Assembly: GCA_023384135.1 (NCBI GenBank)
Contig: JAHDXS010000001.1
Location: 248,001-312,000 of the forward strand
Source of the DNA: Alphaproteobacteria bacterium
GTDB taxonomy: Bacteria > Pseudomonadota > Alphaproteobacteria > Micavibrionales > Micavibrionaceae
DNA: 64,000 bases
Reading direction: 5' to 3'
In this document: piece after piece, positions 2,144-27,924 of the stretch
Numbering within the stretch: the stretch's first letter is position 1
How the letters are laid out: every line of letters begins with the position of its first letter
Notes under the pieces: generated by a model
The model's database searches: none
The model's input: only the letters and a program-made list of their open reading frames with translations
What the model was told of the DNA's origin: nothing
Translations under genes and position numbers: made by a program

Positions 2144-3706
2144 CTATTCGAATCCCACCCTCTCCGCCATTATGCTTTGCCCTTCCCGAAAAGACGCCAG
2201 AGCCTTGAAGGGCAAGGCCATTTCCGGGGTTCGAAACCCCGATTTCCGGCAATATTGAAGACGGTCCGCAAAGGTCAGTTTCAGGACCAGTCTGCGGTGC
2301 ATGTGCGACCCGGAAACCCAGAGTTTTGAAGGGTTTGCGAAGAACGACATGGCGAGTTCGAACATCTCCTCGAACGTGCCGCGCACAAGGCCGCTGGAAA
2401 CCCGCTTTTCTTCCAGCACCAGCTTTTCGCGTTCGAGCTTGGCGATCTTGTTCTCGTAAGCCGTGATGACGGTGGGGTTCGAGGCTTCGACGATGCGCTC
2501 CAGAAGCGAGTCGATTTGCTTCTCGATCCCCTGAATGTCTTTCGCAAAGGTCTTGGCGAAAGCGTGGGCTTGGGCGAGCCGTTGATCCCATCCATGCTTG
2601 ACCAGCGCCCGGACCAGATCGAAAAGCGAGGGCGCAGGCGTCAGGCTTTCCAGAAGCGCGGCGAAGTCCCCCTCGATCTGATCCCGCCGGATCGACTTGC
2701 CCTTTTCCGAGCAAGCCCGGTTGAAGCAGGAATAGTATGGGTGCTTCACACCCGTCTTGCTCTTCGACCATGAGGCCGTCAGGGGCCGCTCGCAGCAGGC
2801 GCAGGTGATCGCGCCCCGCAGCGGGAAGTCGGCATTGAGATCGGGCCGCGCGGGAGCCCGCGCACCTTCCTTCAGGCGCTTCTGGATGCGCTCAAACGTC
2901 TCGAAGCTAATCAGCCCTTCATGCTGGCCCTTGCGCAAGGACACGCCCCAATCGGGCGCTTCCACATATCCGGCATAGAGTGTCTTGGTCAGCGTGTCGG
3001 TCACGAACTGATTGCGCACGACGCCGTAACGGTCTTTCGGGAAGACGGGGAAGCTTTCAAAGAAGCGCTTCACTTCGGCTTGGGTTTCAAAGCGGCCCGA
3101 GGCGTAGCCTTCCAAGCCTTCCTGAATGATCGAGGCTAAGGGTTCATCGCGCACCAGCACCTTGCCTTGCCCCGGCGAATGCACATGCTTGAAGCCGATG
3201 CAGGAGATGAACGGCCAGTAGCCGTTCTGAATCCGGGCGCGCATCCGGTTGCGGGTTTGCTCCGCATTCTTCTGGCGCTGATGCTGCGAAACGGAGGCCA
3301 GAAGGTTCTCAACGAGGATGGAGTCGGAATCCTCGCCGAACTCAATCGACGGGCTTTCGAGCCGTGCGCCCGCCGCCGCAATCGCATCGCGCAGATCGAG
3401 GTGGGCCTTCATATCCCGCGCGAGGCGCGAGATATCGTCGATCAGGACGACATGCTCTTTGCTGCGATTGGCTTTGAGGTATTTGAGCATGGCGAGCATT
3501 CCGGGACGGTCGATCAGACTGCCGGATACGGCTTCATCGCAGAAGACGTGCGCGATTTCATAGCCTTTCATGCGCGCGAACTCCCGGCAGCGCGTTTCCT
3601 GCGAGCCGAGGCCGTGGCCTTTCTGCATTTGCGCGACGCTGGAGACGCGCGCGTAAATGACGGCGGTGGCGGTGTTGGTTTTTGGTTTGGCGGTTTGAGC
3701 AGTCAT
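2144..3706 (-). CDS. large serine recombinase (site-specific integrase)
   Basis: This 520-residue protein carries an N-terminal resolvase catalytic domain: VIYARVSS with the nucleophilic serine near residue 22, then a DDISRLARDM active-site arginine segment. A recombinase domain follows, then a zinc ribbon (CACCERPL and, further on, FNRACSEKG), and a long coiled coil (about residues 390-450). This is the layout of large serine integrases, which join attP and attB without high-energy cofactors. ATG 3706 is preceded by GGGAGGGG and overlaps the upstream stop (ATGA). The last residues, AERVGFE, are the antisense translation of the tRNA-Ser 3' end, so the C-terminus has been set by the junction. 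Confidence 0.9.
   Translation of the reverse strand: MTAQTAKPKTNTATAVIYARVSSVAQMQKGHGLGSQETRCREFARMKGYEIAHVFCDEAVSGSLIDRPGMLAMLKYLKANRSKEHVVLIDDISRLARDMKAHLDLRDAIAAAGARLESPSIEFGEDSDSILVENLLASVSQHQRQKNAEQTRNRMRARIQNGYWPFISCIGFKHVHSPGQGKVLVRDEPLASIIQEGLEGYASGRFETQAEVKRFFESFPVFPKDRYGVVRNQFVTDTLTKTLYAGYVEAPDWGVSLRKGQHEGLISFETFERIQKRLKEGARAPARPDLNADFPLRGAITCACCERPLTASWSKSKTGVKHPYYSCFNRACSEKGKSIRRDQIEGDFAALLESLTPAPSLFDLVRALVKHGWDQRLAQAHAFAKTFAKDIQGIEKQIDSLLERIVEASNPTVITAYENKIAKLEREKLVLEEKRVSSGLVRGTFEEMFELAMSFFANPSKLWVSGSHMHRRLVLKLTFADRLQYCRKSGFRTPEMALPFKALASFREGQSIMAERVGFE
2146..2169 (+). other. tRNA-Ser 3'-end sequence, probable attachment site junction
   Basis: The 24 bases end in TTCGAATCCCACCCTCTCCGCCA (2147-2169 on the plus strand), which is a T-loop, T-stem 3' strand, acceptor strand, discriminator G and CCA as in alphaproteobacterial serine tRNAs. 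No 5' half of a tRNA lies upstream, so this is a 3' remnant of the kind left when an element integrates into a tRNA gene. It falls exactly between the alpA-bearing element and the recombinase-bearing element. The last codons of the recombinase are read from its complement. Confidence 0.6.
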
Positions 3707-4074
3707 GGCGTGTCCCCTCCCTGCATGTGTTGAATCCTTTTCGGGCACGGGGCTAACCCTGCGCGCTCGAAGTCTTTGCAAAATTCTGGATGGGGAGAGT
3801 CTAGCGCATCCGAATTGGCCTCGCCGCAAAGAACGGCAGCCGCATCAAACTGTCCACAGGCTTGCTGGCCAAGAGCCATCTGAAGCGGGTGGATGCCAAA
3901 GCCCATGTCGATGAATTGCAGCACGATGCCCCAGATGGTCTGGATGTATTCGAGCTTCTGATCGTGTGTCAGATCGCTTTCATCGAGGAAGTGCGCAAAT
4001 GCCTGCGCATCGAATTGAATGGCCAGCGTTGGCGTCGGGTCTCTTTCGTGGATTTGTGTCTTGATTTCTTTCAT
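3703..4074 (-). CDS. conserved mobile-element protein, unknown
   Basis: The product is 123 residues, acidic in its first two thirds, with two Cys pairs' worth of cysteines (QQACGQ, VLCGEAN, EFCKDF, APCPKR). Its stop overlaps the recombinase start (ATGA at 3703-3706), so the two are translationally coupled. It may be a small accessory or directionality partner of the recombinase, but nothing in the sequence shows a DNA-binding fold. I recognise no named family. Confidence 0.65.
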   Translation of the reverse strand: MKEIKTQIHERDPTPTLAIQFDAQAFAHFLDESDLTHDQKLEYIQTIWGIVLQFIDMGFGIHPLQMALGQQACGQFDAAAVLCGEANSDALDSPHPEFCKDFERAGLAPCPKRIQHMQGGDTP

Positions 4075-10209: not shown

Positions 10210-11346
10210 TCAGAAGCGTTCGGCCAGCTTGTTCTCGACAATCTGGATCAGGTATTTGAGATCGCCAATCTTACGCCCGAAGTCGGTGGCGGCCAACAGG
10301 CGGTCATCCTCACACCGCACGGGTTCGGGACTGAGAAGCCCGAGATGCGCGAGGCTGGGATCGAGGTTAGCGCTGAGCATGTCCACTTGCTTGTCGCCCC
10401 ACGCGATCAATTGAATGGCGTCCCATTCGACCTTGCCGAAGCTGAAGAACGACGCGGCCATGGGCCTGCCGTTCAGACGGGTATCCTGTTCGGTGAGATG
10501 GAGCGAGTAATCCTCCCGGCTGCGCACAGAGCGGGCCTTGACGAAGAGCGGTGGGAAGTTCGCGCCGAATTCCGGGGGCAGATGAATGCGCACCTGCTTG
10601 ATGACGAGGTATGGCGTATCCTCGCTGTCGTCCTCGAAGGGTCCGGCGTCCACGTCGATGGTGACGATGAATTGCCGTCCCGCGCTATCGCGCATGTGGA
10701 GGTTCAGGTTCTTGGCTGTCAGCGTTGCATACCCATGTATGCAGACATCCGTGACGGTGCGTTGTCCGGTCTTGTCTTCCTGAAACACGGCGATGCGCCC
10801 GCGCGTCAGGATGATAGGGTTGTTGGCCAGAGGCGTAAGCTGGAAGGCCATCGCGCAGGTGGGCGAGAAGAGATCGGCGAATAGCCAGCCCGTGGCGAGG
10901 TCGATCAGGTCTTTGCGGGTCCGTTCCTTGCGAAAGCGCCGCGCATCGTGGAGTGCGGTCAACACGTCATCCATATCCGCCCAGAAGAGTAAGGGGTGAG
11001 CGTCCAGCCTTTCCCGGAAGAATGCCGTCATCTGATCCAGCGTCTGGGATTGCGGCCTTGTCTTGCGGTCCTTGAAGCGCGTGACCTTGGCGGCGCTGAT
11101 CGGGGCGTGAACGTCATCGTCCCGTCCCCACATGCCGAGAACGCTTGGACAGGCGTTCATCTGATTGGCCACCGTTTCATCGTCGAAGCCGTGGAGCGCC
11201 TGATAGCAGCGCAGCATGTCGGCGAGCCGCTCATGCGCGAGCGTTCGCACATCCGTTTCCAGAGAGCGGATCAGTCCCTTCGAGGGCGCGACGTATGGAA
11301 GGTTCGTTTGCATTGGGCGCGTCTTGTATAGCAGAGCGCGACTCAT
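10210..11346 (-). CDS. conserved element protein of 378 residues, unknown
   Basis: The N-terminal part (residues about 25-120) looks like a helical, HTH-like region (LADMLRCYQALHGFDDETVA, then a TRFKDRKTRPQSQTLDQMT segment). It is followed by a mainly beta C-terminal half with a long strand-rich stretch (RIAVFQEDKTGQRTVTDVCI). It might be a transcriptional regulator with a sensor domain, but this is inference. The first Met (11346) and Met 12 (11313) are both possible starts and neither has a convincing ribosome site. The gene's upstream side is the hairpin array at 11468-11897, which may be part of its leader or control region. Confidence 0.6.
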   Translation of the reverse strand: MSRALLYKTRPMQTNLPYVAPSKGLIRSLETDVRTLAHERLADMLRCYQALHGFDDETVANQMNACPSVLGMWGRDDDVHAPISAAKVTRFKDRKTRPQSQTLDQMTAFFRERLDAHPLLFWADMDDVLTALHDARRFRKERTRKDLIDLATGWLFADLFSPTCAMAFQLTPLANNPIILTRGRIAVFQEDKTGQRTVTDVCIHGYATLTAKNLNLHMRDSAGRQFIVTIDVDAGPFEDDSEDTPYLVIKQVRIHLPPEFGANFPPLFVKARSVRSREDYSLHLTEQDTRLNGRPMAASFFSFGKVEWDAIQLIAWGDKQVDMLSANLDPSLAHLGLLSPEPVRCEDDRLLAATDFGRKIGDLKYLIQIVENKLAERF

Positions 11347-11897: not shown

Positions 11898-11974
11898 GGA
11901 TGCGATTCTGAATACAGCTGCATTCGGCCGATTCATGCTCGCAAATCGTGTATCCAACGGCTACACTATCGCCC

Positions 11975-12151
11975 ATGAAAGATTCGGGACTCCGCATTCG
12001 GGTCGAGCGCGAGCTTCGGGAGAAGTTTGTCGAGCTATGCCGTGAGCAGGATAGGCCAGCAGCGCAGGTCATTCGGGAGTTCATGAAGCAGTATGTGCGT
12101 GACCATTCAGACGGCGCGGAAGACAGGAAAGGCGGGCAGAAAAAGAAATGA
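11975..12151 (+). CDS. ribbon-helix-helix regulator of the restriction-like operon
   Basis: The 58-residue product from ATG 11975 has an RHH pattern: a short strand (LRIRVERELREKF) then two helices (VELCREQDRPAAQVIREFMK), with a Lys-rich tail. Its stop overlaps the methyltransferase start (ATGA, 12148-12151), so the two are coupled. RHH proteins are usual autoregulators of toxin-antitoxin and restriction operons; here it probably controls the operon's own promoter. A longer start at 11948 is possible. Confidence 0.7.
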   Translation: MKDSGLRIRVERELREKFVELCREQDRPAAQVIREFMKQYVRDHSDGAEDRKGGQKKK

Positions 12152-14931
12152 ATGCCGTCGAGATCGAGGAAGCCATATCCGCGCTAGCTGAGCAGCCTTT
12201 TGATGCTCAGGAGTTTCCGTTCGCGTTCCTCGAAGCCTTTGGCAACAAGGAAGCCACGATCAAGCGCCTTCGCGCCGGAGCAACGAACAAATCCGACATT
12301 GGCGGCGTTCTCCAGACCAACAACATCCATATCAAGACGTGCCGCCCCGGCGAGGTCACGCAAACGCTTGCCGCCCTGAAAGCCAGCCCCGCGACCGCCA
12401 AGGGAAAGGTCAAGTTCACACTGGCCACGGACGGCGAGACCTTTGAGGCTGAGGATGTAGGCACGGGCGAGACGGTGGCCTGCGCCTACGGCAATTTCCC
12501 GGACCACTTCGGCTTCTTCCTGCCTCTGGCGGGTATCTCGACCGTCAAGCAGCTCCGCGACAGCTCTTTCGATATTCGTGCGACAAGCCGCCTCAACAGG
12601 CTCTACCGGACGCTGCTGGAGGAAAATCCCGACTGGGACGTTGCCGAACGCCGCCCTGACATGAACCACTTCATGGCGCGCCTGATCTTCTGTTTCTTCG
12701 CTGAGGATACGGACATCTTCAACGGCACGGGCCTGTTCACCGCGACCGTCGAGCAGATGAGCGCCAAGGATTCGTCGAACACGGATTATGTCATTGGCGA
12801 AATCTTCCGCGCCATGAACGTCAAAATCGCCGAACGGGAGAGTGCAAAGCTTCCCCGTTGGGCCAATTTATTTCCTTATGTCAACGGCGGGCTGTTTTCG
12901 GGCCGCATGGACGTACCCCGCTTTAGCAAGATCGCCCGGTCCTACCTGCTCCACATCGGTAATCTCGACTGGACGAAGATCAACCCCGACATTTTCGGGT
13001 CGATGATTCAGGCCGTCGCCGATGACGAAGAGCGCGGCGCATTGGGGATGCACTACACCAGCGTTCCGAACATCCTGAAAGTTCTCAATCCGCTGTTTCT
13101 AGATGATCTGCGCGAGAAGCTGGAGGAAGCGGGCGACAACAGGATCAAGCTTCTAAATCTGCGCAAGCGGATGTCCCGGATCAGGGTTTTCGACCCCGCC
13201 TGCGGCAGCGGCAATTTCCTAGTCATCGCCTACAAGCAAATGCGGGAGATTGAGGCGGAGATCAACAAACGGCGCGGCGAAACCGAGCGGAAATCGGAAA
13301 TTCCGCTTACGAATTTTCGGGGCATCGAACTGCGCGACTTCCCCGCCGAAATCGCGCGCCTTGCGCTCATCATCGCAGAGTATCAGTGCGACGTGCTTTA
13401 TCGCGGGCAAAAGCTGGCTTTGGCCGAGTTTTTGCCGCTCGACGCGCAGAACTGGATTACCTGCGGCAATGCCCTGAAGCTCGATTGGCTAACGGTCTGC
13501 GAACCTACCGGGATCGGTGGCGGGAAAATTTTTGCCGATGATTTGTTTGGTGCGCCGCTCGATCAGACCAAGGTAGACTTCGAAAACGAAGGCGGAGAAA
13601 CCTATATCTGCAGCAATCCACCGTACCTCGGCAGTAAATGGCAGACTGACGAACACAAATCTGACCTTAAGGCGATCTTCGCCGACAGAACGACGAGTTG
13701 GAAGTCCCTTGACTATGTGGCTGGCTGGTTTCTCAAAGCCGCTGACTACGGGGCCAGAACCAACGCTGTATCGGCATTCGTGTCCACGAATTCGATTTGC
13801 CAAGGGCAGCAAGTTCCAATCCTATGGCCGCTAATTTTCGAAACAGGCCACCAGATTTCCTTTGCCCACACTTCATTCAAATGGGCGAATCTCGCCAGCT
13901 ATAACGCCGGGGTAATCGTAGCCATCATCGCGATATCGCGCGATGTGTCAGCCGCCAAGCGGCTATTCTCAATCGCCGATGATGGTTCGGTGATGGAGCG
14001 GCAGGTGAGCAACATCAATGCCTATCTCGTAGCTGGGGCAAACAGAGCTATCAACGCCGCGCGAAGCCCAATCGGGAACTTGTCTCCGATGCTGTTCGGA
14101 AACATGCCGCGAGACGGCGGGCATTTCATTTTGTCGGCAGATGAGAGACGCCTGCTTTTAGACGCATATCCGGAGCTTGCCCGGTTTGTCCGACCCTATC
14201 TTGGGTCCGAACAGATGATCCAAGGGAAGCCTCGCTGGTGCATATGGATCGAAGCCAAGGATGCGGAATTCGCGAATGCACACCCCTATTTGAGTGCACT
14301 GTTGGCGCGCGTGCGCGAATTTCGTAGCAGCAGCGCAGCTGCGTCAACTCGCGATTTTTCTTCCAAGCCATACCGCTTCGTGCAGATCGCTGGCACGGCT
14401 AAAAACTACACATTAGCGGTGGCAAAGGTGTCGTCCGAAAGGAGGCCATACCTGCCGATACACCTCTTTGACCGAGAGACGATCGTGAGCGACCTACTGT
14501 TTGCACTTTACGATGCTCCCTTGTGGAACATGTCGATAGTAGCATCACGTCTTCATCTGGTTTGGATTAGCACCGTGTGCGGCAAGCTAAAGACCGATTT
14601 CCGCTACTCCAATACCTTGGGCTGGAACACCTTTCCTGTGCCGACGTTCACCGAAAAGAACAAGATCGATCTCACCCGCTGCGCTGAGAAAATCTTGCTT
14701 GCACGCGAGGCGCATTTCCCAGCGACAATTGCTGATCTTTACGACCCCGAAAATATGCCTGCTGATTTGCGCGATGCGCACGAGCACAATGATGAAGTGC
14801 TTGAGCGCATCTACATCGGACGTCGCTTCAAGAATGACACCGAACGTCTCGAAAAGCTGTTTGACCTATATACCCGTATGTCAGCCAATGATGAGTTCAG
14901 CGTACTGCGGGGGAAAGTAGTGCGCGGATGA
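12148..14931 (+). CDS. MmeI-like N6-adenine DNA methyltransferase
   Basis: This 927-residue protein has the class I SAM-binding motif FDPACGSGNF (residues about 348-357) and the catalytic NPPY (490-493), so it methylates adenine N6. Size and the segments FPYVNGGLF and ALGMHYTSV place it with MmeI/YeeA-type proteins, which join an N-terminal nuclease-like region, helical spacer, methyltransferase, target-recognition and C-terminal domains. In the first 150 residues I see no convincing PD-ExK catalytic set, so cleavage is probably done by the nucleases encoded downstream. The start is coupled to the RHH gene and the stop to the PLD gene (ATGA both times). Confidence 0.88.
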   Translation: MNAVEIEEAISALAEQPFDAQEFPFAFLEAFGNKEATIKRLRAGATNKSDIGGVLQTNNIHIKTCRPGEVTQTLAALKASPATAKGKVKFTLATDGETFEAEDVGTGETVACAYGNFPDHFGFFLPLAGISTVKQLRDSSFDIRATSRLNRLYRTLLEENPDWDVAERRPDMNHFMARLIFCFFAEDTDIFNGTGLFTATVEQMSAKDSSNTDYVIGEIFRAMNVKIAERESAKLPRWANLFPYVNGGLFSGRMDVPRFSKIARSYLLHIGNLDWTKINPDIFGSMIQAVADDEERGALGMHYTSVPNILKVLNPLFLDDLREKLEEAGDNRIKLLNLRKRMSRIRVFDPACGSGNFLVIAYKQMREIEAEINKRRGETERKSEIPLTNFRGIELRDFPAEIARLALIIAEYQCDVLYRGQKLALAEFLPLDAQNWITCGNALKLDWLTVCEPTGIGGGKIFADDLFGAPLDQTKVDFENEGGETYICSNPPYLGSKWQTDEHKSDLKAIFADRTTSWKSLDYVAGWFLKAADYGARTNAVSAFVSTNSICQGQQVPILWPLIFETGHQISFAHTSFKWANLASYNAGVIVAIIAISRDVSAAKRLFSIADDGSVMERQVSNINAYLVAGANRAINAARSPIGNLSPMLFGNMPRDGGHFILSADERRLLLDAYPELARFVRPYLGSEQMIQGKPRWCIWIEAKDAEFANAHPYLSALLARVREFRSSSAAASTRDFSSKPYRFVQIAGTAKNYTLAVAKVSSERRPYLPIHLFDRETIVSDLLFALYDAPLWNMSIVASRLHLVWISTVCGKLKTDFRYSNTLGWNTFPVPTFTEKNKIDLTRCAEKILLAREAHFPATIADLYDPENMPADLRDAHEHNDEVLERIYIGRRFKNDTERLEKLFDLYTRMSANDEFSVLRGKVVRG

Positions 14932-15959
14932 AGACTAAGGCATTTATCCAATCAGTCGCGCCGCAGCCTTCGACTCTGTCTGAGCTCCGTCGTGTCCACG
15001 CGTGGGCCGAGACGGACGGCTACTTTGGACTATACGCATATGCGACTCAATCAGGCGTCGTGGCTTTTGATTTGGCGTTTGGAGCGGGATTTTGGCAGGA
15101 CGTCCAATCGAGATGGCTGTTCGGAATCGACTATGGCCGGACACAGCCACAAGCACTCCGGTCCATGATTGGGAAGTCTAACGCAGAGGTTCGAATCCAT
15201 GATGGCGCTTGGGTGGTAGAGAACGACGGCTTTCTCCCAAGACACGACTTCCATATGAAGACAAGTTTTCTGATTAACAGCAACGAATCGCGTTTTGGGA
15301 TGGTCGTTGGTTCCGGGAATTTTTCATCGAATGGCCTTCGCCATGCTGCAGAGTGCGGAGCCAGTTTCCACACTAGCACCCACAGCGAATTCAAAGAGGC
15401 ATTTTGCTCGGCGATGGAGGCCGCTGAAAGTCTCTGGAATACGGCGGCCCCCGCGCAAGACATTATAGAAGCATATGAGCAACGATGGAAATCATCTGCT
15501 GTTATTGAGGCGGCAGGGCTTACTGATCCCACTCCAAACTATGACGACGTTGAAGCGTTCTGGATTGAAGCAGGATACGTCACTCGAAACAGAGGCGCAG
15601 ACCGTCCTGGAAACCAGATCGATATGCCACGTGGCATGAACCGCTATTTTGGGTTCAATGCGCCCGACAGCCTTGCGGTAAATTCCATTATCGGAAGCGT
15701 GACGTTCGAGCCTCCAACTGGCGGCTTGGTTTCCAACAATCTCAGACTTGGCAACAACTTGATGGAGAAGGTTTCGCTTCCAATTCCGGAGACACATGGT
15801 TTCGACATGTACGACGGCAAGGTGCTCGTCTTCTCTCCGACAAATGGTCGCTTCCGCATGTGGGCCTTGGAGGCCGCAGATTTTGAAGCCGCGTTCGGCC
15901 ACAGGCTTGGCGGTGTTCGCGCGATGGGAAGCGGCAGACGATACGGGTATATTAAATGA
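14928..15959 (+). CDS. PLD-family restriction nuclease (NgoFVII/BfiI-like)
   Basis: The 343-residue protein has one phospholipase D half-site: HMK at residues 109-111 followed by VVGSGNFSSNGL at 127-138, which matches the HxK...GS(G)N arrangement of metal-independent restriction nucleases such as BfiI and NgoFVII, active as dimers. The C-terminal 150 residues (GNQIDMPRGMNRYFG, later KVLVFSPTNGRFRMWAL) look like the B3-type DNA-binding domain found in that family. Translation is coupled to the methyltransferase (ATGA 14928-14931) and the helicase starts ten bases after its stop. Assignment is from motifs and context. Confidence 0.75.
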   Translation: MKTKAFIQSVAPQPSTLSELRRVHAWAETDGYFGLYAYATQSGVVAFDLAFGAGFWQDVQSRWLFGIDYGRTQPQALRSMIGKSNAEVRIHDGAWVVENDGFLPRHDFHMKTSFLINSNESRFGMVVGSGNFSSNGLRHAAECGASFHTSTHSEFKEAFCSAMEAAESLWNTAAPAQDIIEAYEQRWKSSAVIEAAGLTDPTPNYDDVEAFWIEAGYVTRNRGADRPGNQIDMPRGMNRYFGFNAPDSLAVNSIIGSVTFEPPTGGLVSNNLRLGNNLMEKVSLPIPETHGFDMYDGKVLVFSPTNGRFRMWALEAADFEAAFGHRLGGVRAMGSGRRYGYIK

Positions 15960-15969
15960 GTAGTACAGA

Positions 15970-18024
15970 ATGATCGCACCCCGAACCATCCCAACTGTCT
16001 CTGTCACCTATGCCCGCAACGGCACATCGACCAAGGCGAACGCCCTTGGAATGCGTCCCATGCAGGAGCGCGCTTTTGAAAAGCGCGGGGAGCAATATCT
16101 TCTCATCAAATCCCCGCCCGCCTCGGGCAAGAGCCGTGCGCTGATGTTCATCGCCCTCGACAAACTTGCCCATCAGGGGATCAAACAAGCCATCATCGTG
16201 GTGCCGGAAAAATCCATCGGCGCGAGTTTCAACGACGAACCGCTGACACAGTGCGGGTTTTCAGCAGACTGGCACGTCGAGCCGAAATGGAATCTCTGCA
16301 ACGCGCCGGGTTCCGATAATGGTGGCAAGGTTAAATCCGTTGAGGCGTTCTTGGGGAGCGCTGACAAGGTGCTGGTCTGCACCCACGCGACCTTCCGCTT
16401 CGCCGTGGATCAGTATGGCGTCGAGGCGTTCGATGACCGCCTGATCGCCGTGGACGAATTTCACCACGTCTCGGCCAGTCCCGACAACAAGCTTGGCCAA
16501 CATCTCGGCCAGTTCGTCGCCCGCGATAAAGTGCATATCGTGGCGATGACGGGTTCCTACTTCCGGGGCGACGCCGAAGCCGTCTTGGCCCCGCAGGATG
16601 AGGCGAAGTTCGATACCGTCACCTACACCTACTATGAGCAGCTCAACGGCTATGAGTATTTGAAACAGCTCGATATCGGTTATTTTTTCTATTCCGGCTC
16701 CTACGCCGAAGATATCCTGCGCGTCCTGAACCCCGCCGAGAAAACCATCGTCCACATTCCCAACGTCAATTCGCGTGAAAGCACGAAGGACAAGATCAAG
16801 GAAGTGGAGCACATCATCAGTGCATTGGGCGAATGGCAGGGAGCCGATCCGCATACCGGGTTCCAGCTTGTCAATACACCCGAAGGCCGTGTTCTGCGAA
16901 TTGCGGACCTCGTGGACGACGATCCGAACAAGCGCGAGCGCGTGTCCGCCGCCCTGAAGGACTCCACACAGAAGAACAACCGCGACTATGTGGACATCAT
17001 CATCGCGCTGGGCATGGCCAAGGAAGGCTTTGACTGGATTTGGTGTGAACACGCTTTGACGGTTGGCTATCGCTCCAGCCTCACCGAAATCGTGCAGATC
17101 ATCGGGCGTGCAACCCGCGATGCCCCCGGCAAGACCCGCGCCCGCTTCACCAATCTGATCGCCGAACCCGACGCTTCCGAGGAGGCCGTGACCGAGGCCG
17201 TCAACGATACCCTGAAGGCCATCGCCGCCAGCCTGCTCATGGAGCAGGTGCTTGCACCGCGCTTCAACTTCACGCCCAAGAATCCGGGCAGCGGCCCCGT
17301 CGAAGGCTTCGATTATGGCGAAGGCGGCTATGATCCGAACAAGGCGAATGTGGGCTTCAACGAGGAAACGGGGCAATTCCAGATCGAGATTAAGGGGCTT
17401 GCCGAACCGAAAAGCAAAGAGGCCGCCCGCATCTGTCAGGAAGATTTGAACGAGGTGATTGCCACCTTCATTCAGGATAAAACCGCCATTGAGCGCGGCC
17501 TGTTTGACGAAGAGCTTGTTCCCGAGGAGCTGACTCAGGTCCGTTTGGGCAAGATCATCAAGGACAAATACCCGGAACTCGACGAAGAGGATCAGGAGGC
17601 CGTTCGCCAACACGCTATCGCCGCGCTTACCCTCACCCAGCAGGCCAAAAAGATTGCTTTGGGGGGCGACAGCGACGAGCCAAGCGCGAATACCGCCTTG
17701 ATCGACGGTGTGCGGAGGTTTGCGATGGATGTGCGCGAACTCGATATCGACTTGATCGACCGCATTAACCCGTTCGGCGAAGCCTACGCGATCCTTGCCA
17801 AGACAATGAGCGAGGAAAGCCTGAGACAGGTTCATGCGGCAATTTCTGCAAGACGCACGGGCCTCACGCCTGAAGAGGCTAAAGACCTTGCTGTCCGCGC
17901 CTACCGCTTCAAGAAGGAACGCGGACGTCTCCCGTCGATCAGCTCGACCGACGCATGGGAAAAGCGCATGGCCGAGGGCGCGGCAGCATTCGTCCGTTTC
18001 AAGGATGAGGGCCGCTATGACTGA
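15970..18024 (+). CDS. DEAD/DEAH (ResIII-type) superfamily 2 helicase
   Basis: The 684-residue protein has Walker A SPPASGKS (residues 48-55), a DEFH Walker B (162-165), motif III MTGS (193-196) and motif VI around residue 376 (QIIGRATRDAPGKTRAR). It is a complete two-lobe SF2 motor of the type III restriction/ERCC3 kind. The C-terminal 250 residues are helical and charged and may bind partners. In restriction systems such motors translocate DNA between recognition and cleavage. It overlaps the following GIY-YIG gene by eight bases. Confidence 0.85.
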   Translation: MIAPRTIPTVSVTYARNGTSTKANALGMRPMQERAFEKRGEQYLLIKSPPASGKSRALMFIALDKLAHQGIKQAIIVVPEKSIGASFNDEPLTQCGFSADWHVEPKWNLCNAPGSDNGGKVKSVEAFLGSADKVLVCTHATFRFAVDQYGVEAFDDRLIAVDEFHHVSASPDNKLGQHLGQFVARDKVHIVAMTGSYFRGDAEAVLAPQDEAKFDTVTYTYYEQLNGYEYLKQLDIGYFFYSGSYAEDILRVLNPAEKTIVHIPNVNSRESTKDKIKEVEHIISALGEWQGADPHTGFQLVNTPEGRVLRIADLVDDDPNKRERVSAALKDSTQKNNRDYVDIIIALGMAKEGFDWIWCEHALTVGYRSSLTEIVQIIGRATRDAPGKTRARFTNLIAEPDASEEAVTEAVNDTLKAIAASLLMEQVLAPRFNFTPKNPGSGPVEGFDYGEGGYDPNKANVGFNEETGQFQIEIKGLAEPKSKEAARICQEDLNEVIATFIQDKTAIERGLFDEELVPEELTQVRLGKIIKDKYPELDEEDQEAVRQHAIAALTLTQQAKKIALGGDSDEPSANTALIDGVRRFAMDVRELDIDLIDRINPFGEAYAILAKTMSEESLRQVHAAISARRTGLTPEEAKDLAVRAYRFKKERGRLPSISSTDAWEKRMAEGAAAFVRFKDEGRYD

Positions 18025-19216
18025 CCTCGATCTTGACGAACTGCGCGCCGAACTCGACGACTTCGCCCAGCCCGAGAAGAAGGGTGGGCGCTCTGCGCGT
18101 GAAGAGCGCATCATCGCGGGCTTTGAAGAGATTCAGCGCTTTGTCGATCAACACGGACGCGCTCCGCAGCACGGCGAAGGAAATGACATTTTCGAACGGC
18201 TTTATGCCGTCCGGCTCGACCGCTTGCGCTCCCTTGAAGAATGCCGCGCCCTTCTCAATCCGCTCGACCGTCAGGGGCTGTTCACCGGAGACGGGGCCGC
18301 CACCGTTGCAGTGACAGAGGCCATCGACGACGACGAGTTGCTTGCCGAGATGCAAGGCGCGGCGGGCGCAACCGACATCACGGAGCTGCGTCATGTCCGA
18401 TCCGCCGCAGAAAAGCGGGCGGCAGAAGAAATCGCCAATCGCCAGAAGTGTGAGGACTTCGACACATTCAAGCCGCTCTTCAAGGCGTTAGAGCGCGACC
18501 TCGATACGGGTGTGCGTATCACCCGTCAGATCAGGAAGGACGCGGGCTTCCTGAAGACCGACATCAAGCAAGGCGAATTTTTTATCCTCGGGGGCCAAAT
18601 CGCTTACGTCGCCGAGGTGGGTGAATGGTTCAAAGCACCAAACGGCGAGAATGACGCCCGCCTTCGTGTGATCTACTCGAACGGCACGGAAAGCGACCTG
18701 CTTCTTCGCTCCCTGCAACGGGCGCTCTACAAGGACGACGCCAGCCGCCGAATATCCGAACCGAGCGCAGGGCCGCTGTTTTCCGGGGAGAGCAGCGAGG
18801 ACGATTTGGCCAGCGGAACGATTTATGTACTGCGAAGCAAGTCCGATCATCCCATTGTCGTGCAACACCGTGAGGTTCTACACAAGATCGGCGTAACTGG
18901 CGGCGACGTGGAGCGACGCATTGCCAACGCCAAGCTCGATCCAACATTTCTTTTGGCAGATGTGGAGATATTCGCAACCTACAAGCTGTCAAACATCAAT
19001 CGGACAAAATTGGAAAACCTCATTCACCGAATTTTCGATACTGCGCGGCTCAATATTGAGATCAAGGACCGCTTTGGAAATCCTGTAATCCCGCGGGAAT
19101 GGTTTCTCGTGCCGTTCTCGGTTGTCGATGAAGCCATTGAACGGATCAAGGACGGTAGCATTAAGAGTTACAAGTACGACCAACAGCAAGCCCGCCTAAT
19201 TCGTATAAGGACTTGA
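18017..19216 (+). CDS. GIY-YIG nuclease-like protein (T5orf172/MUG113 type)
   Basis: ATG 18017 overlaps the helicase stop; an upstream extension to 17834 lies wholly inside the helicase and is rejected. The 399-residue product has a helical, charged N-terminal half. Its GIY-YIG domain follows: GTIYVLRS (residues 267-274), HKIGVTGGDVERRI (289-302) with the catalytic Arg, and a Glu at 333 (RTKLENLIHRIF). The Tyr of YIG is replaced by Lys (KIG), as is usual in the T5orf172 branch. As last gene of the coupled operon it gives the system a second nuclease domain. Confidence 0.82.
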   Translation: MTDLDLDELRAELDDFAQPEKKGGRSAREERIIAGFEEIQRFVDQHGRAPQHGEGNDIFERLYAVRLDRLRSLEECRALLNPLDRQGLFTGDGAATVAVTEAIDDDELLAEMQGAAGATDITELRHVRSAAEKRAAEEIANRQKCEDFDTFKPLFKALERDLDTGVRITRQIRKDAGFLKTDIKQGEFFILGGQIAYVAEVGEWFKAPNGENDARLRVIYSNGTESDLLLRSLQRALYKDDASRRISEPSAGPLFSGESSEDDLASGTIYVLRSKSDHPIVVQHREVLHKIGVTGGDVERRIANAKLDPTFLLADVEIFATYKLSNINRTKLENLIHRIFDTARLNIEIKDRFGNPVIPREWFLVPFSVVDEAIERIKDGSIKSYKYDQQQARLIRIRT

Positions 19217-19469: not shown

Positions 19470-20039
19470 GTGAGCAGAGTCAGTCAGCAGCATTCAAAGG
19501 CAGGGGGAGACATTGTCGCAGGCGACAAGGTCACTACATTCAATGATGCACCGAAGGGCAAGATTGAGAAGCTCCTGAAAAAGCTTCAAGAGCAATACGA
19601 CGGCGACGAAGCAACCCAGAGCATCATAGACGAGCTCGCCCGATATCACTCTCGACGCACGCCAGACGGTGTGTCCGGTCTAGAAGCCAAGCTCGAAGCA
19701 GCAGGAAAGTGTGACTCTTTTGACGACGCCATTGAAAAGAAAGAAATGTTTGCCAAGCTTCTTCAGAAATGGACTATGTACTCATCGGCCCAATTAATCT
19801 TTTCCCACATTTTAGCGAAGGCGGAAATCGAGTTTACTCAGGTTATCTATCCGCAAATACCGAGCAAAACGGAGACAGAAATCAACGCACTCGTAATCGA
19901 GCGTATCGTAAGCCCAATTGTTGAGGAATGCGGTGATGAGCTGCTCGCGATAAATCACAGTCTCGTTTTGGGCATGGTCTATTGGTTGGCCGAACAGTGC
20001 TTTATTCGCTGGCATCATCCGAAGCAGGCTACGCAATGA
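19470..20039 (+). CDS. ABC-3C-associated protein with GGDIV motif
   Basis: A GTG at 19470 opens a 189-residue frame beginning MSRVSQQHSKAGGDIVAGDK. After this motif come about 160 residues of helix (IEKLLKKLQEQYDGDEATQS, and later LIFSHILAKAEIEF, IERIVSPIVEECGDELL). The stop overlaps the next start (ATGA 20036-20039). I assign it to an ABC three-component system because of the coupled middle component and ATPase that follow; the protein alone would be unclassifiable. The helical part is likely the domain that contacts the other components. Confidence 0.6.
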   Translation: MSRVSQQHSKAGGDIVAGDKVTTFNDAPKGKIEKLLKKLQEQYDGDEATQSIIDELARYHSRRTPDGVSGLEAKLEAAGKCDSFDDAIEKKEMFAKLLQKWTMYSSAQLIFSHILAKAEIEFTQVIYPQIPSKTETEINALVIERIVSPIVEECGDELLAINHSLVLGMVYWLAEQCFIRWHHPKQATQ

Positions 20040-20557
20040 CTCAGCTCACGTACAATGAAGCATTTGATCCTTATCACGCGACCTTCCGGTTTTTGCGTCT
20101 CTGGAAAGGATGTGGGCTTGTCGGAAAAACCCACTTCGATATGCTCCGCATTCTGGATTTCTATTTGTTATTTCCTTTCCGTATACAGAATATGTCCCTG
20201 TTTTCTGAAGATCGTGGGTGGCGAAAAATTAGTAAGCGTTATGACGATCGCAAGCCTTACGGCGAACTCCCTGACGACGTTTCAATCTTTTCAAGAATGG
20301 AGCCATTTCAGCGCGCGGCAGTAACTTCCCTTGTAAATGCGGGCTTTTTATCGGCTGATGCTTGGCACTGCAATCAAATCGAATTCGTAGGCGGCAATTT
20401 AACATCGGAACTTGAAATGAGGTGCTCGGAGCTCAACGTTTCAATGCGCGACGTAATTAATGTCCTGTGCAGCATTAAGGAGCGATATCCGCTTCTCGGG
20501 CGCAACGGACTGAAAGATCGAACAGGACTCTTGGAGTACAGGTATGACGCGGTTTGA
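20036..20557 (+). CDS. ABC-3C middle component
   Basis: ATG 20036 overlaps the previous stop, giving 173 residues. The segments NEAFDPYHATFRFLRLW and ILDFYLLFPFRIQNM, then MEPFQRAAVTSLVNAGFL, match what I know of the middle-component families (MC5-like) that link ABC-type ATPases to effectors in ABC-3C systems. Such proteins are winged-helix-like adaptors. It overlaps the ATPase gene by 14 bases. The family number is from memory. Confidence 0.65.
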   Translation: MTQLTYNEAFDPYHATFRFLRLWKGCGLVGKTHFDMLRILDFYLLFPFRIQNMSLFSEDRGWRKISKRYDDRKPYGELPDDVSIFSRMEPFQRAAVTSLVNAGFLSADAWHCNQIEFVGGNLTSELEMRCSELNVSMRDVINVLCSIKERYPLLGRNGLKDRTGLLEYRYDAV

Positions 20558-22457
20558 GCCCTGCCTGATAGTTAAGAGGATGGTCGTAAAGCGGCGCGCG
20601 TCAGTTGCCTATGACGAGCATTTCCATCTAGGCGTCAACGTCGTGCGGGGTGATAACTCTTCGGGTAAATCAACGATTCTGAACTTCATATTCTTCGGAC
20701 TTGGTGGTGATCTCAGCAAAGATGACTGGAGCGAGCACGCACTGAAATGCGACTTCGTTTGGATTGAGGTAGAGTATAACGGCAAGCCAGCTGTTCTGCG
20801 AAGAGCCATAGATGTGAACTCGTTGTCTCCAATGGAAATTTTCGGTGGTCGGTATGATGATGCTCTTATTGCGCCTATCGAGGAATGGGCAAAGTATCCC
20901 TATTCACGCTCAAGAAATGCGGAGAGTTTTTCACAAGCTATCTTTCGCCTGCTTGGCATGCCGGATGTTGCCGTTGAGGGCACTTCGAGTATAACTATCC
21001 ATCAAGTATTAAGATTACTCTATGCCGATCAACTTAGCCCAATTGAAAACCTCTTCCGTTTCGAAGGTTATGACCCCGAAAACCTTCGCGAAGCCGTCGG
21101 TAATTTACTCTGCGGCGCATTTGATGCCGAGATATATGAACTTCAACAACGCCGCAGACTTCGCGATAAGGAATATTCAGAAGCCTCAGCAGAGCTAAGG
21201 AGTATTTTCAAAGTTGTGGGCGGGGATGAGAGTCTTGGGCTTGAGTGGGTGCAGCAAAAGCGCAAAGCGCTGGTTGAGGAGCGTGAGGAATTGCTGGGGC
21301 ATATCGCCACGGCTGAAGAGGAGTTCTATGCCAAGAGGTCCGATGAGAAGATCACGATTTCAGCTCAGAAATCTGTTTTCAAAGAAGTTCAACAGCTTCA
21401 GCGAGAACTTCAAGATATTCGCGCTTCCATCGGCGCATTAGAATTTGAGATTGCTGACTCCGATGCCTTTATTGCTACGCTGCGCCAAAGGCTTGAAGCG
21501 CTTAAGGATGCCGATTTGACATCGTCGGTTGTTGAGACGATCCACTTCGCTACCTGCCCATCCTGTTATGCTGAGATATTGGAAAACGATGAAACTATAG
21601 CCGCTTGCCATTTATGCAAAACACCGCTCGATACCCAGCGGGCTCGTGATCGAGTTGTCGGTTTAATGAACGATCTCTCAATTCAGGTCAGGCAATCGGA
21701 AAGGCTGCAAGGTGTTCGACAATATCGTCTCAAGGCTCTGGAGTTGAAGTATGCGAGCACCGAGAATGAATGGAAACTAAAGGCCAAAGAGCTGACAGGG
21801 TTGAGCGTTCTGCCGACTTCCAAGGTGCGGGACAAAATCCGCGAGCTACACCGGAGGCTTGGTTATATTGATAAATCAATCGAGGATACCGATGAACAGC
21901 TTAATCTTGCTAACCGGATTGGGGATCTGTCAGCCCGTAAGGCGGCTCTCGATGCAGAACTAAAGGATTTAGACGCCTGTATTGAGGGCCTCAAACGCAG
22001 CCAGACAGACCGATTGAGGACTGCGCGTCGATCTATCGAGAGAAAGACAATCGAGCTGCTGAAGGGCGACCTTAAACGACAGGACTCTTTCGAAGACCCA
22101 AAGCATGTCGATTTCTCTTTCGCTAAAAACATGATCACCGTTGACGAACATACCTATTTTTCAGCAAGCTCGCGGGTGGTGCTGAAGACTTCTTTCCTAG
22201 TTGGATTCCTTGCTGCTGCTCTAGAGGATGAGGCTTTCCGTCACCCACGTTTTCTGATGATCGATATCACCGAAGACAAAGGTATGGAACAAGAGCGAAG
22301 CCACAATTTCCAAGAGCAAGTTGTTCGGGTGTCAGCGGAATCGGAAGTAGAGCATCAGATTATTCTGGCGACAGCGATGCCGTCCCCAAAGCTTGATAAA
22401 GACGCTTTTGTTGGCAAGTTCTCTACTCGCGACAACGGGACACTCGCATTCATTTGA
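20544..22457 (+). CDS. ABC-type (SMC/Rad50-like) ATPase of an ABC-3C system
   Basis: This 637-residue protein has Walker A GDNSSGKS (residues 36-43). Helical arms follow (about 210-330 and 375-500), separated by a zinc ribbon with CPSC (338-341) and CHLC (355-358). Walker B lies in RFLMIDITEDKG (569-580), ahead of a QER segment. The usual LSGGQ signature is replaced by a diverged ASSRVVLKTS stretch. This layout is that of ABC-3C ATPases, thought to sense invading nucleic acid or nucleoprotein and license an effector. It is the last gene of the coupled operon; base composition is lower in GC than the neighbouring restriction-like genes. Confidence 0.8.
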   Translation: MTRFEPCLIVKRMVVKRRASVAYDEHFHLGVNVVRGDNSSGKSTILNFIFFGLGGDLSKDDWSEHALKCDFVWIEVEYNGKPAVLRRAIDVNSLSPMEIFGGRYDDALIAPIEEWAKYPYSRSRNAESFSQAIFRLLGMPDVAVEGTSSITIHQVLRLLYADQLSPIENLFRFEGYDPENLREAVGNLLCGAFDAEIYELQQRRRLRDKEYSEASAELRSIFKVVGGDESLGLEWVQQKRKALVEEREELLGHIATAEEEFYAKRSDEKITISAQKSVFKEVQQLQRELQDIRASIGALEFEIADSDAFIATLRQRLEALKDADLTSSVVETIHFATCPSCYAEILENDETIAACHLCKTPLDTQRARDRVVGLMNDLSIQVRQSERLQGVRQYRLKALELKYASTENEWKLKAKELTGLSVLPTSKVRDKIRELHRRLGYIDKSIEDTDEQLNLANRIGDLSARKAALDAELKDLDACIEGLKRSQTDRLRTARRSIERKTIELLKGDLKRQDSFEDPKHVDFSFAKNMITVDEHTYFSASSRVVLKTSFLVGFLAAALEDEAFRHPRFLMIDITEDKGMEQERSHNFQEQVVRVSAESEVEHQIILATAMPSPKLDKDAFVGKFSTRDNGTLAFI

Positions 22458-22643: not shown

Positions 22644-22687
22644 CCTGACGCTTGCGCACCTGCCGTTCGCCACTTGGGCAGGGTTGC

Positions 22688-23242
22688 ATGAGCAACCCAT
22701 TTCCTACGAAAGAAATACCTCCGATGACGGACGAAGCTAAAACCATCAGAATCTATGTAGCCTGTTTAGCCGCTTACAATAACGGCATCCTGCACGGGCG
22801 CTGGATCGATGCCACTTTAGGCGAAGATCATATTTCGGACGGCATCAAGGCCATGCTGGCCGCGTCCCCAATCCCCGGAGCCGAAGAACACGCCATCCAC
22901 GATTACGAGGGCTTTGAGGGCGTGGCTTTAGGTGAAAACGAGAGTGTGCAGCGCGTTGCCGAACTGGCCGCGTTTATTGGGGAACATGGCGCGATTGCCG
23001 GGAAGCTGGTCGAGTATTTCGGCGATCTTGAGGAAGCCAAGGAGGCGCTTGAAGACCGCTATTGCGGCGTTCATTCATCCGTGGCCGATTTCGCGCAGGA
23101 GATCACCGAAGAAACCACGCAGATTCCGCAGAACCTGCAATACTACATCGACTATGAGCGCATGGCCCGCGATCTGGAAATGTCCGATATCCTCGCCATC
23201 GAAACGGGCTTCGAGGAAGTACATATTTTCTGGCAAGGCTGA
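22688..23242 (+). CDS. ardA: antirestriction protein ArdA
   Basis: From ATG 22688 (MSNPF) the product is 184 residues; a start at Met 22724 (MTDEAK) is also possible. The segments RIYVACLAAYNNGILHGRWI and HAIHDYEGFEGVALGENES are the ArdA signature, and the protein is very acidic as expected of a B-form DNA mimic. ArdA dimers bind type I restriction enzymes and protect incoming single-stranded-to-double-stranded plasmid DNA during transfer. Its presence supports a conjugation-borne lifestyle for the element. It does not obviously inhibit the MmeI-like system nearby. Confidence 0.88.
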   Translation: MSNPFPTKEIPPMTDEAKTIRIYVACLAAYNNGILHGRWIDATLGEDHISDGIKAMLAASPIPGAEEHAIHDYEGFEGVALGENESVQRVAELAAFIGEHGAIAGKLVEYFGDLEEAKEALEDRYCGVHSSVADFAQEITEETTQIPQNLQYYIDYERMARDLEMSDILAIETGFEEVHIFWQG

Positions 23243-25307: not shown

Positions 25308-26621
25308 CTAGCGTTCTGGCTCAGGCGCATGGGGCCGTTCCGGCTCATGCCCGGATTTCTTGCGGCTTTCGAGGAACGCCCGCTTTGCATCATCCACTGG
25401 GTCCGGCGGGCCTTGCGCTGTCCGTTCAAACCGCGCGCGATCTTCCGCCAAACCGCGTTGTTGCTCTTGCAGCCGCTCGACTTCTTGTTTGTGGCGTTCC
25501 GCCAGCGCGCGGCGCGCTTCAAGCTGGGCGAAGATCAGATCGTCTTTTTGGCGGCGGTCCCGTAGCAGGGTGTCGTAAGCCTCCTTCTCGTTTTCTTCGC
25601 GCAGGCGGCGATGTTCACCCCGCAGCTTGTCCCAGAACCCGGCCAGCCCGGTGCGGAAGCGTTCCTGCCGCGCTTGGGTTTCCCGGATACGGCGGTCTTC
25701 GATCCCGTCAAACAGGGCTTGTCGTTCGGCGGTCTGGCGTTCGATCAGCCCGCGCTTGTGCGTCTCATATCGGGCGTGGTGCCCGTCGATCCGCTCTTGC
25801 AGTTCGCGCTCCCATCTTGTGAGCACGGGCTGCATGTCCTCGGCGATTTGAGCCTTGGCGTCATCCAGCGAGGGCAGCGTATCGGTCTCGCCCAGACGGG
25901 CGCGCACATCCTTAGTTTTGACGCCTGCCCATTTGGAGAGGGCATAGACTTCCCCCTGATGATCGACGGCGAGATACCCCCGGCGGTCCCCGCGCGCGAG
26001 CGTATAGCCGCGTTCCTTCAAGGCATGGACCAGCGCGGCCTTGTTGTCCGAGATCGCCCAGGCATCTTGCAAGGCGGTCTTGATTTCGCGCGGATCGCGT
26101 CCTTGGCGCTTGGCCTGTTGCCACTCATCCAGCGTGAAATTGCGCGGATCGCTGCGGCTTCTGTCTGCGATCCCCTCGGGCATTTTCCAGCCGTGTTCGA
26201 GGTAGAGTTCGCGGGAGAGGTCTTGCAGCTTGAGGTGCGAATAGGAAAGCTGCACCGCCTTCATCTCTTCAATGTCGATGCGGCTCCAAACGGCATGAGC
26301 ATGGCGGCGGCCTTCCTTTTCATGGAAGACGATGACGCGGGGCTGGTCGGTCAGGCCGAGCATGGCTTCGGCGCGCGCAATGGCGTCCTCAAAGGTTTCG
26401 GTGGAGACGTTCTCGCGCGGCGGCGGATTGAACGAGAGCGAAAAGAGGAATTGCTTGCAGCGCGTCCCCTTGCTCAAGGCGTAGGCTTCCTGAAACGCCC
26501 CCTGCACATCGTCGGAGGCGAAGCCCCGCACTTCATGCACGGTGACATGATCGTTCTCGCCAGAGAGAAGATGGGCGGCGAGATCACGCCCGCCGCCGCG
26601 CTGATTGCCGATCAGGATCAT
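25308..26621 (-). CDS. relaxase/mobilization nuclease (MobA/VirD2-like)
   Basis: The 437-residue protein has a relaxase domain in its first 200 residues: NQRGGGRDLAAHLL near the N-terminus and the histidine cluster FHEKEGRRHAHAVW, with H100, H107 and H109 as the metal triad. The nearest candidate for the strand-transfer tyrosine is Tyr47 (FQEAYALSKG); there is no Tyr in the first 40 residues. The last 180 residues are a highly charged coiled coil (RQTAERQALF, QVERLQEQQ-like). Its start overlaps the mobC stop (26618-26621). The relaxase would nick oriT, probably just upstream of mobC, and enter the recipient covalently bound to DNA. Confidence 0.85.
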   Translation of the reverse strand: MILIGNQRGGGRDLAAHLLSGENDHVTVHEVRGFASDDVQGAFQEAYALSKGTRCKQFLFSLSFNPPPRENVSTETFEDAIARAEAMLGLTDQPRVIVFHEKEGRRHAHAVWSRIDIEEMKAVQLSYSHLKLQDLSRELYLEHGWKMPEGIADRSRSDPRNFTLDEWQQAKRQGRDPREIKTALQDAWAISDNKAALVHALKERGYTLARGDRRGYLAVDHQGEVYALSKWAGVKTKDVRARLGETDTLPSLDDAKAQIAEDMQPVLTRWERELQERIDGHHARYETHKRGLIERQTAERQALFDGIEDRRIRETQARQERFRTGLAGFWDKLRGEHRRLREENEKEAYDTLLRDRRQKDDLIFAQLEARRALAERHKQEVERLQEQQRGLAEDRARFERTAQGPPDPVDDAKRAFLESRKKSGHEPERPHAPEPER

Positions 26622-27076
26622 GGACTACCCCCGGCAGGCGGAAAGCCCAAGGCTGAGAGCAAGGCATCCCGCATGATGCGGATATCCCGGCAGGCATTCT
26701 CTAGCTCTTCGAGCAATGCCGGAGAGACGACCAGCACCCCGATATGGGCGGCCTTGGCGATCTGGTTGAGGTTATTGGCCAGCCTTGACTGCCCCAGCAT
26801 CCCCAGCACCTTCGCCAGTCCGGCCTGATCGGCGGCGGGTTTGCGCCGCAGCTTCCGGGGCGCGGTCCCATCCCCCAAGAGCCGTTCGCGCATATAGACG
26901 CTTAAGGGTTTGCCCTTGGCTTGGGCTTCCAGCCGTTCGCGCTCTTCCTGCGTCAGGCGGATCGAGAACGGGTGGAGCGGCTTGGCCTTCTTGGCGGCCA
27001 GAGATGCTGCCTCGCCCTTTGCAGCGGCCAGAAACTCCTCAAGGCGGCTGATATTGTTGTTCGGGGAGCCGGTCAT
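26618..27076 (-). CDS. mobC: MobC-type relaxosome protein
   Basis: The 152-residue protein has an RHH-like DNA-binding segment (HPFSIRLTQEERERLEAQAK, then LSVYMRERLL) followed by the MobC signature ANNLNQIAKAAHIG. MobC proteins open the DNA at oriT and help the relaxase reach its nick site. It is the first gene of the mobilization operon and faces the AT-rich intergenic stretch at 27077-27237. Confidence 0.85.
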   Translation of the reverse strand: MTGSPNNNISRLEEFLAAAKGEAASLAAKKAKPLHPFSIRLTQEERERLEAQAKGKPLSVYMRERLLGDGTAPRKLRRKPAADQAGLAKVLGMLGQSRLANNLNQIAKAAHIGVLVVSPALLEELENACRDIRIMRDALLSALGFPPAGGSP

Positions 27077-27237: not shown

Positions 27238-27924
27238 ATGGCAAGTACAGCCGCTGAATATAAAAAGCACTATGAAGAATTCGCGCAAAATGTCGCTTTT
27301 GCAGTTAGGACATGGCACCACCAAGTTCACCTAGGCGACAGGGCAGAAAAAGATCCAAAAATTCTTATAGCGTTAAACAAAGCCACAAGATACTGGCTTG
27401 ATCAGAGGTATGCTGCAGCTCAAACAACAATCATCTTCTTAAGCAAGATATTTGATGATGATCGCCGCACCCATAATGTCGACAAAATGCTTAAAGCTGC
27501 AAATGATAGAAAAGAATATTTTAGCAAACAAGAGTTACGCAAAAGAAAGGTTGAATCAGGCGGGGAGTTTGAGGGAATTGACGAATATATTGAGAATGCA
27601 ACTGAGTTAGACAGTCATGATCTCAAAACAATTAGAAATGAGCTTAAGAAAGCAAAAATTATCTGGAAACGTATCAAGCCATTACGAGATAAAGTATACG
27701 CTCACAGCCAAATGCTGTCTGACGCTGAACGTGAAGAACTTTATAAATCCGTAAAAAATGCAGATATAAACGAGATACTGCAAATTCTTATGAACATTTC
27801 TAATGCCCTATGGGAAGCGGAGTTCAACGGCCGCAAACCTGATTTTTCACATAATCACACACAGCCTATCGAGTCGGCCAAGAAAAACATTGAACAATTA
27901 ATAGGTAGTTTATTAAATCATTAA
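27238..27924 (+). CDS. AbiU2-like HEPN protein
   Basis: This 228-residue, all-helical, Lys-rich protein contains IIWKRIKPLRDKVYAHSQML. R150-D151 and H156 form an Rx5H HEPN motif, and the spacing, preceded by QTTIIFLSKIFDDDRRTHNV, resembles AbiU2-type HEPN proteins from abortive infection. The gene is strikingly AT-rich compared with both the mobilization genes on its left and the dehydrogenase on its right, marking it as separately acquired. It lies at the right edge of the element, inside or just outside it. Confidence 0.6.
   Translation: MASTAAEYKKHYEEFAQNVAFAVRTWHHQVHLGDRAEKDPKILIALNKATRYWLDQRYAAAQTTIIFLSKIFDDDRRTHNVDKMLKAANDRKEYFSKQELRKRKVESGGEFEGIDEYIENATELDSHDLKTIRNELKKAKIIWKRIKPLRDKVYAHSQMLSDAEREELYKSVKNADINEILQILMNISNALWEAEFNGRKPDFSHNHTQPIESAKKNIEQLIGSLLNH

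Follow-up and report, generated by a model that had tools for sequence, protein, structure and literature searches.

The stretch analysed here (the window, 64,000 nucleotides of contig JAHDXS010000001.1 from an alphaproteobacterium of the Micavibrionaceae) carries five coupled open frames at 11975-19216. All lie on the same (+) strand and encode a ribbon-helix-helix (RHH) protein, an MmeI-like DNA methyltransferase, a phospholipase D (PLD)-type nuclease, a superfamily 2 (SF2) helicase and a GIY-YIG protein. On balance, we favour reading this cluster as a restriction-modification operon of the DnmA-YeeB-YeeC type, located on a mobilizable genomic element and extended by a PLD-type endonuclease that is cognate to the methyltransferase. 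The core layout of methyltransferase, helicase and GIY-YIG genes is already known as the DnmA-YeeB-YeeC cluster, which is common but little understood. What is new is a PLD gene separating methyltransferase and helicase; most of the remaining layout is known. An earlier note on this DNA had proposed an unknown defence system with two effectors, and its interpretation is partly supported: the novelty largely falls, since the core has already been described (PMC7261158, PMC9973331), while the two-effector idea survives, as a prediction from sequence, for the PLD-bearing variant.

The PLD gene follows the target recognition domain (TRD) of the methyltransferase rather than the helicase. For these comparisons, loci (cited by labels such as L003) were grouped by PLD presence and not from the trees. 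Among DnmA-type loci, 554 pairs have helicases that are 60-97% identical; the median identity of their TRDs is 41%, and three of the pairs reach 70%. One of these three joins the window to L003, a contig of a metagenome-assembled genome, with TRDs 91% and PLD proteins 78% identical. The helicase and the methyltransferase N-half of L003 are closest to those of L082, L009 and L124 (91-92%), not to those of the window, whereas its TRD and PLD protein are closest to the window. L003 and L082, the third PLD-bearing locus, share 92% identity in the helicase, 51% in the TRD and 43% in the PLD protein. TRD trees unite the window, L003 and L082 in one clade (support 98/95 with 40 rows, 97/94 with 38 and 86/82 with 26). 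This clade is at odds with the helicase data, which reject it (P = 2.8e-73) as they do the pairing of window and L003 (P = 8.6e-6), and the methyltransferase N-half rejects the three-locus clade (P = 6e-7). Therefore, the two halves of a single methyltransferase gene differ in history, and PLD goes with the recognition half. Between window and L003, TRD and PLD have diverged at synonymous sites by about 1.3-1.5, so their likeness does not come from recent copying. Other genes found at the same position do not track the TRD, e.g. RhuM is 70% identical where the TRD is 36% identical, and PDDEXK_4 49% where the TRD is again 36%. This co-segregation, unlike the behaviour of the other cargo, suggests a second cutting enzyme that is matched in sequence and operates under the same methyl mark.

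The PLD protein alone matches the Pfam family RE_NgoFVII below the cut-off (E 0.15). A profile of its nine-member family matches SauUSI (E 3.6e-15) and BfiI (E 5.7e-5) in the PDB, and the modelled N-terminal domain superposes on SauUSI (Z 18.2 over 167 residues, 2.3 Å), BfiI (Z 15.8) and NgoAVII R (Z 13.2). All nine members keep residues F108-H109, K111, G128-S129, N131 and E142 without variation (GSGN 128-131 in the window), and the chain holds a single copy of the HxK/GSxN/Glu motif. Family profile and fold thus bear out the BfiI/NgoFVII-like fold that the earlier note had named, and the PLD assignment of the N-terminal domain is confirmed. Of two AlphaFold2 runs, the first was good for about residues 11-192 only and the second poor throughout. 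The C-terminal domain (about 196-343) is proposed as a DNA-recognition domain.

Full-length relatives of this protein are rare. A plasmid search gave eight records, including one C-terminal fragment and two from the same strain; further relatives are in L003 and in a genome, L081, and none was found in viral contigs or phages. Wider relatives from the class, the order and plasmids share the PLD domain only and are frequently found next to methyltransferase-like genes, though in different settings as well; they were not counted as family. A methyltransferase gene, of varying class, adjoins all nine of the aligned full-length members. In the window, L003 and L082 it is MmeI-like and accompanied by YeeB-YeeC genes. 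In L084, L085 and L088 (5080-8945), on Methylobacterium/Methylorubrum plasmids, PLD and an MmeI-like methyltransferase form two-gene units without a helicase. In L083 (669-16558), a DISARM class 1 locus of Methylocystis sp. MJC1, the PLD relative comes right after drmMI and gives no DrmC match. In L086 the PLD gene faces an Eco57I/N6-methylase gene and in L081 an N6_N4 methylase gene, and near a truncated Paracoccus copy (70% over 87 residues) there is a methylase gene as well. Such constant company of varied methyltransferases fits a restriction partner that moves between them. The methyltransferases of L084, L085 and L088 have the N-terminus FIDLFWKGVLLVEQKS, in which PD-ExK appears intact by eye; in these units one methyltransferase is possibly paired with two nucleases.

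The methyltransferase of the window matches all five MmeI domains of Pfam (methylase domain E 1.6e-115) and the MmeI structure 5hr4 (E 8.5e-137). Where the MmeI nuclease has D/ExK, it has D50, H61 and K63. In an alignment of 35 methyltransferases spanning this region, 29 have His at the position of the ExK glutamate and the others Tyr, Phe or Leu; the lysine is not conserved, with Ala in 20. The methylase motifs are intact. Judged from these residues, the protein is an MmeI relative with a dead nuclease site, as the earlier note had suspected. In the host genome, another open frame, of 1034 residues (L002, G000:C4:4857-5378), also matches the MmeI methylase domain, though less strongly.

The order of methyltransferase, helicase and GIY-YIG genes is nearly constant, and the three are syntenic in about 50 loci. 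With dozens of genomes, plasmids and viral contigs showing this synteny, the gene set is far beyond chance. Helicase relatives occur in 264 plasmid records and in 25 of the 398 sampled genomes of the phylum, GIY-YIG relatives in 229 plasmid records; one plasmid helicase relative is annotated as YeeB, and B. subtilis, among the control genomes, gives an MmeI_Mtase match. The assignment to DnmA-YeeB-YeeC is made by domains, gene order and published description, so that likeness to the B. subtilis proteins is indirect. The cluster was noted in 2009. DnmA of B. subtilis methylates GACGAG and is without the MmeI nuclease motif, and in other genomes helicase and GIY-YIG families occupy the first and second positions downstream of dnmA (PMC7261158, PMC9973331). 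In the literature surveyed we found no account of how DnmA-YeeB-YeeC restricts, the best-studied copy having looked inactive, and the publications found on this cluster do not mention a PLD gene.

Helicase motifs (Walker A PPASGKS 49-55, DEFHH 162-166 and motif VI QIIGRATRD 376-384) and GIY-YIG residues (Y270, K290, G292, R301, E333, H337, E361 and W362) are invariant or nearly so in relatives. Two different nuclease folds, PLD and GIY-YIG, are present, as the earlier note had claimed, and the catalytic motifs of both are intact by sequence comparison. Against the PDB, the helicase (YeeB) profile gave no significant match to any chain, including the solved helicases of the CglI/NgoAVII system, and the GIY-YIG profile gave no close relative. 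GIY-YIG residues are kept across relatives and PLD is optional; therefore, the GIY-YIG protein would be the universal nuclease of DnmA-YeeB-YeeC-type operons.

The junction between methyltransferase and helicase is filled by one or more genes in about 20 of the 53 loci that show it and is empty in the rest. PLD fills it only in the window, L003 and L082. Other cargo includes RhuM (L023, L061), YhcG (L024, with a remnant in L066), PDDEXK_4 (L064, L070), CoiA-like (L014, L134), HTH/M78-peptidase (L066, L067), toxin-antitoxin (L126) and HigA-like genes as well as unknowns, and a Mrr-type gene precedes the helicase in L015. The loci with non-PLD cargo are L014, L015, L016, L023, L024, L029, L061, L064, L066, L067, L069, L070, L071, L120, L126, L134 and L135. 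An unknown 277-residue gene at the junction of L029 recurs, 79% identical, in L067. As most loci have no PLD gene, the idea that PLD is a constant subunit of YeeB-YeeC was rejected; from the gene content of these loci, it is an optional addition in one gene slot. The gene coupled upstream varies as well: it is of the HigA family in L124 and, by eye, PhdYefM-, VapC- or HTH-like in other loci, and no RHH relative was found upstream of other DnmA-type loci. The RHH gene was thus rejected as a core regulator and, on this comparison, appears as a local coupled regulator outside the conserved system.

Several observations weigh against a cognate PLD enzyme in a working restriction operon. This PLD occurs in three DnmA-type loci only, and TRD and PLD are physically adjacent, so that exchange of one segment could give the pattern without shared specificity. 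Support for the TRD clade is weaker in the 26-row set (86/82). The TRDs of L084 and L085 are virtually identical and their PLD C-terminal domains 70% identical, and the PLD protein of L086 is 66% identical to that of L084, yet paired with a different methylase. The C-terminal domain to which recognition is ascribed gave no confident model and no PDB profile match. Finally, dnmA-yeeB-yeeC of B. subtilis, a cluster without PLD, restricted neither the phages nor the plasmid tested (PMC7261158, PMC9973331).

One alternative, which we consider unlikely, is that PLD and the YeeB helicase work as a single ATP-dependent endonuclease resembling CglI, NgoAVII and SauUSI, in which the GIY-YIG protein would be another subunit. 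SauUSI, to which the PLD domain is closest in both fold and profile, is a fused PLD-helicase, CglI and NgoAVII combine a PLD R-protein with a separate SF2 helicase (PMC4267653, PMC5737866), and the two genes are adjacent and coupled in the window. However, YeeB-YeeC is without PLD in most loci, no helicase lies near PLD in L084 and L085, PLD stands outside YeeB loci in L081, L086 and L088, and its history departs from that of the helicase.

We give a similarly low probability to PLD being an effector that the operon carries as an accessory or back-up, cutting without sequence specificity or killing the cell once the operon is inhibited. The assorted cargo of the slot (RhuM, YhcG, PDDEXK_4, CoiA-like, HigA-like and toxin-antitoxin genes) agrees with this, as do the auxiliary nucleases embedded in BREX loci (PMC12839542) and the presence of PLD in systems that look complete, i.e. 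beside the L084 methyltransferase with its own apparent nuclease site and in the L083 DISARM locus. By contrast, PLD co-segregates with the TRD, unlike RhuM and PDDEXK_4, a methyltransferase gene adjoins every full-length member of its family, and the relatives BfiI and NgoAVII are sequence-specific. It is very improbable that the operon is a relic in which only the methyltransferase is active, as argued for B. subtilis from its lack of restriction: all frames are intact, catalytic residues are invariant across relatives, dN/dS (nonsynonymous over synonymous divergence) is about 0.1 for methyltransferase and PLD (dN 0.14 and dS 1.46 for the latter, i.e. purifying selection) and lower for the helicase, relatives have spread on plasmids and mobile elements, and V. 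crassostreae becomes more sensitive to some phages once dnmA or yeeB is deleted, according to work cited in PMC9973331.

Under the cognate-endonuclease reading, the MmeI-like enzyme would methylate a single adenine of a non-palindromic site that its TRD selects, by analogy with MmeI and DnmA. YeeB, as an ATP-driven translocase, and YeeC, as a GIY-YIG nuclease, would form the core machine that restricts unmethylated DNA, in which the methyltransferase might act as the recognition subunit. The PLD protein would recognise the site of the methyltransferase through its C-terminal domain and, like BfiI, use a dimeric HxK/GSxN active site to cut this site where it is unmethylated, possibly with help from YeeB. 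A single methyl mark would then guard the host against two unrelated nucleases. We tentatively extend this to two independent machines, YeeB-YeeC and PLD, with specificity changing when a cassette of PLD and the methyltransferase recognition half is swapped into a fixed chassis (methyltransferase N-half, helicase and GIY-YIG). If this idea is true, a restriction system can change its target and still keep marking and cutting matched, though they reside in separate proteins. The PLD-bearing variant also offers a concrete handle, i.e. a well-understood nuclease fold that seemingly shares the specificity of the methyltransferase and can be assayed alone, and the junction slot, with its assorted nucleases and toxin-like genes, is a place to seek new restriction and back-up effectors.

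The open frames agree with the five genes and the spacing given in the earlier note: ATGA overlaps at 12148 (RHH/methyltransferase) and 14928 (methyltransferase/PLD), 10 bases between PLD and helicase, and an 8-base overlap of helicase and GIY-YIG. The GIY-YIG frame is open from 17834, and the start at 18017 agrees with relatives. The domains named for the RHH, methyltransferase, helicase and GIY-YIG genes were recovered by Pfam (Table 1). The surroundings of the cluster resemble a mobilizable element, with recombinase, transfer and other defence genes nearby. A tRNA-Met at 31837 was rejected as its attachment site, with no repeat of at least 15 bases elsewhere in the window. Two genus-mates have neither helicase nor PLD, and within the family a helicase match occurs in 6 of 103 genomes, one of them weak.

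Table 1. Genes of the cluster and of its surroundings in the window
Feature	Position	Strand	Basis or remark
Serine recombinase	2144-3829		
Type IV secretion system (T4SS) coupling protein	6252-7862		
Proteins of 373 and 378 residues	8553-9674 and 10210-11346		No Pfam match; upstream of cluster
RHH_9 ribbon-helix-helix protein, 58 aa	11975..12151	+	Pfam RHH_9 E 3e-7; GTG start at 11948 possible
DnmA-type MmeI-like N6-methyladenine (m6A) DNA methyltransferase, 927 aa	12148..14931	+	Five MmeI Pfam domains; nuclease site predicted dead
TRD, methyltransferase residues 630-833	14035..14646	+	Pfam MmeI_TRD; identities and trees
PLD-type nuclease, 343 aa, predicted	14928..15959	+	Profile and fold matches to SauUSI, BfiI, NgoAVII R
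YeeB-type SF2 helicase/translocase, 684 aa	15970..18024	+	Pfam DEAD/ResIII
YeeC-type GIY-YIG (T5orf172/MUG113) nuclease, 399 aa, predicted	18017..19216	+	Pfam MUG113 E 7.8e-15, T5orf172 E 2.9e-13
ABC-3C-type defence cassette: CTD9 protein, middle component MC5, LmuB/Rad50-like ATPase	19470-22457		Directly downstream of cluster
ArdA antirestriction protein	22652-23242		
MobA/VirD2-type relaxase	25308-26621		
NikA/MobC-like protein	26618-27076		
AbiU2 HEPN protein	27238-27924		

Among known systems, DISARM, BREX and classical type I, II and III were rejected, as their defining partners are absent from the Pfam, PADLOC and NCBIfam matches. The layout is outside classical types I-IV and DISARM, as the earlier note had supposed. 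DISARM class 1 shares a methyltransferase, a helicase and a PLD protein with the window, and one relative of the window PLD lies inside such a locus (L083), but no DrmA, DrmB (DUF1998), DrmD or DrmC-family match was found among the cluster proteins, and the three genes downstream gave no DrmA or DrmB match either. SauUSI likewise combines PLD and SF2 helicase; it differs in being a single fused polypeptide that cuts modified DNA (PMC7913695) and is not known to have a methyltransferase partner. A CglI/NgoAVII locus combines a methyltransferase with a PLD endonuclease and, as a separate protein, an SF2 helicase, whereas the window has an MmeI-type methyltransferase and an extra GIY-YIG gene, and its helicase occurs without PLD and its PLD without helicase. 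The type IIS enzymes BfiI/NgoFVII share the PLD N-terminal domain with one HxK/GSxN/E motif, a second, C-terminal domain and an adjoining methyltransferase gene. In the window the partner is MmeI-like, helicase and GIY-YIG genes are added, and the C-terminal domain, B3-like in BfiI/NgoFVII, is the unmatched one described above. MmeI (type IIL) has all five methyltransferase domains in common with the window protein, with a fused nuclease that is active in MmeI and a site that appears dead here. DnmA-YeeB-YeeC of B. subtilis and its V. crassostreae homologues share the MmeI-like methyltransferase without PD-ExK, the SF2 helicase, the T5orf172/GIY-YIG protein, the gene order and the strand; the window differs by its upstream RHH gene and by the PLD gene that separates methyltransferase from helicase.

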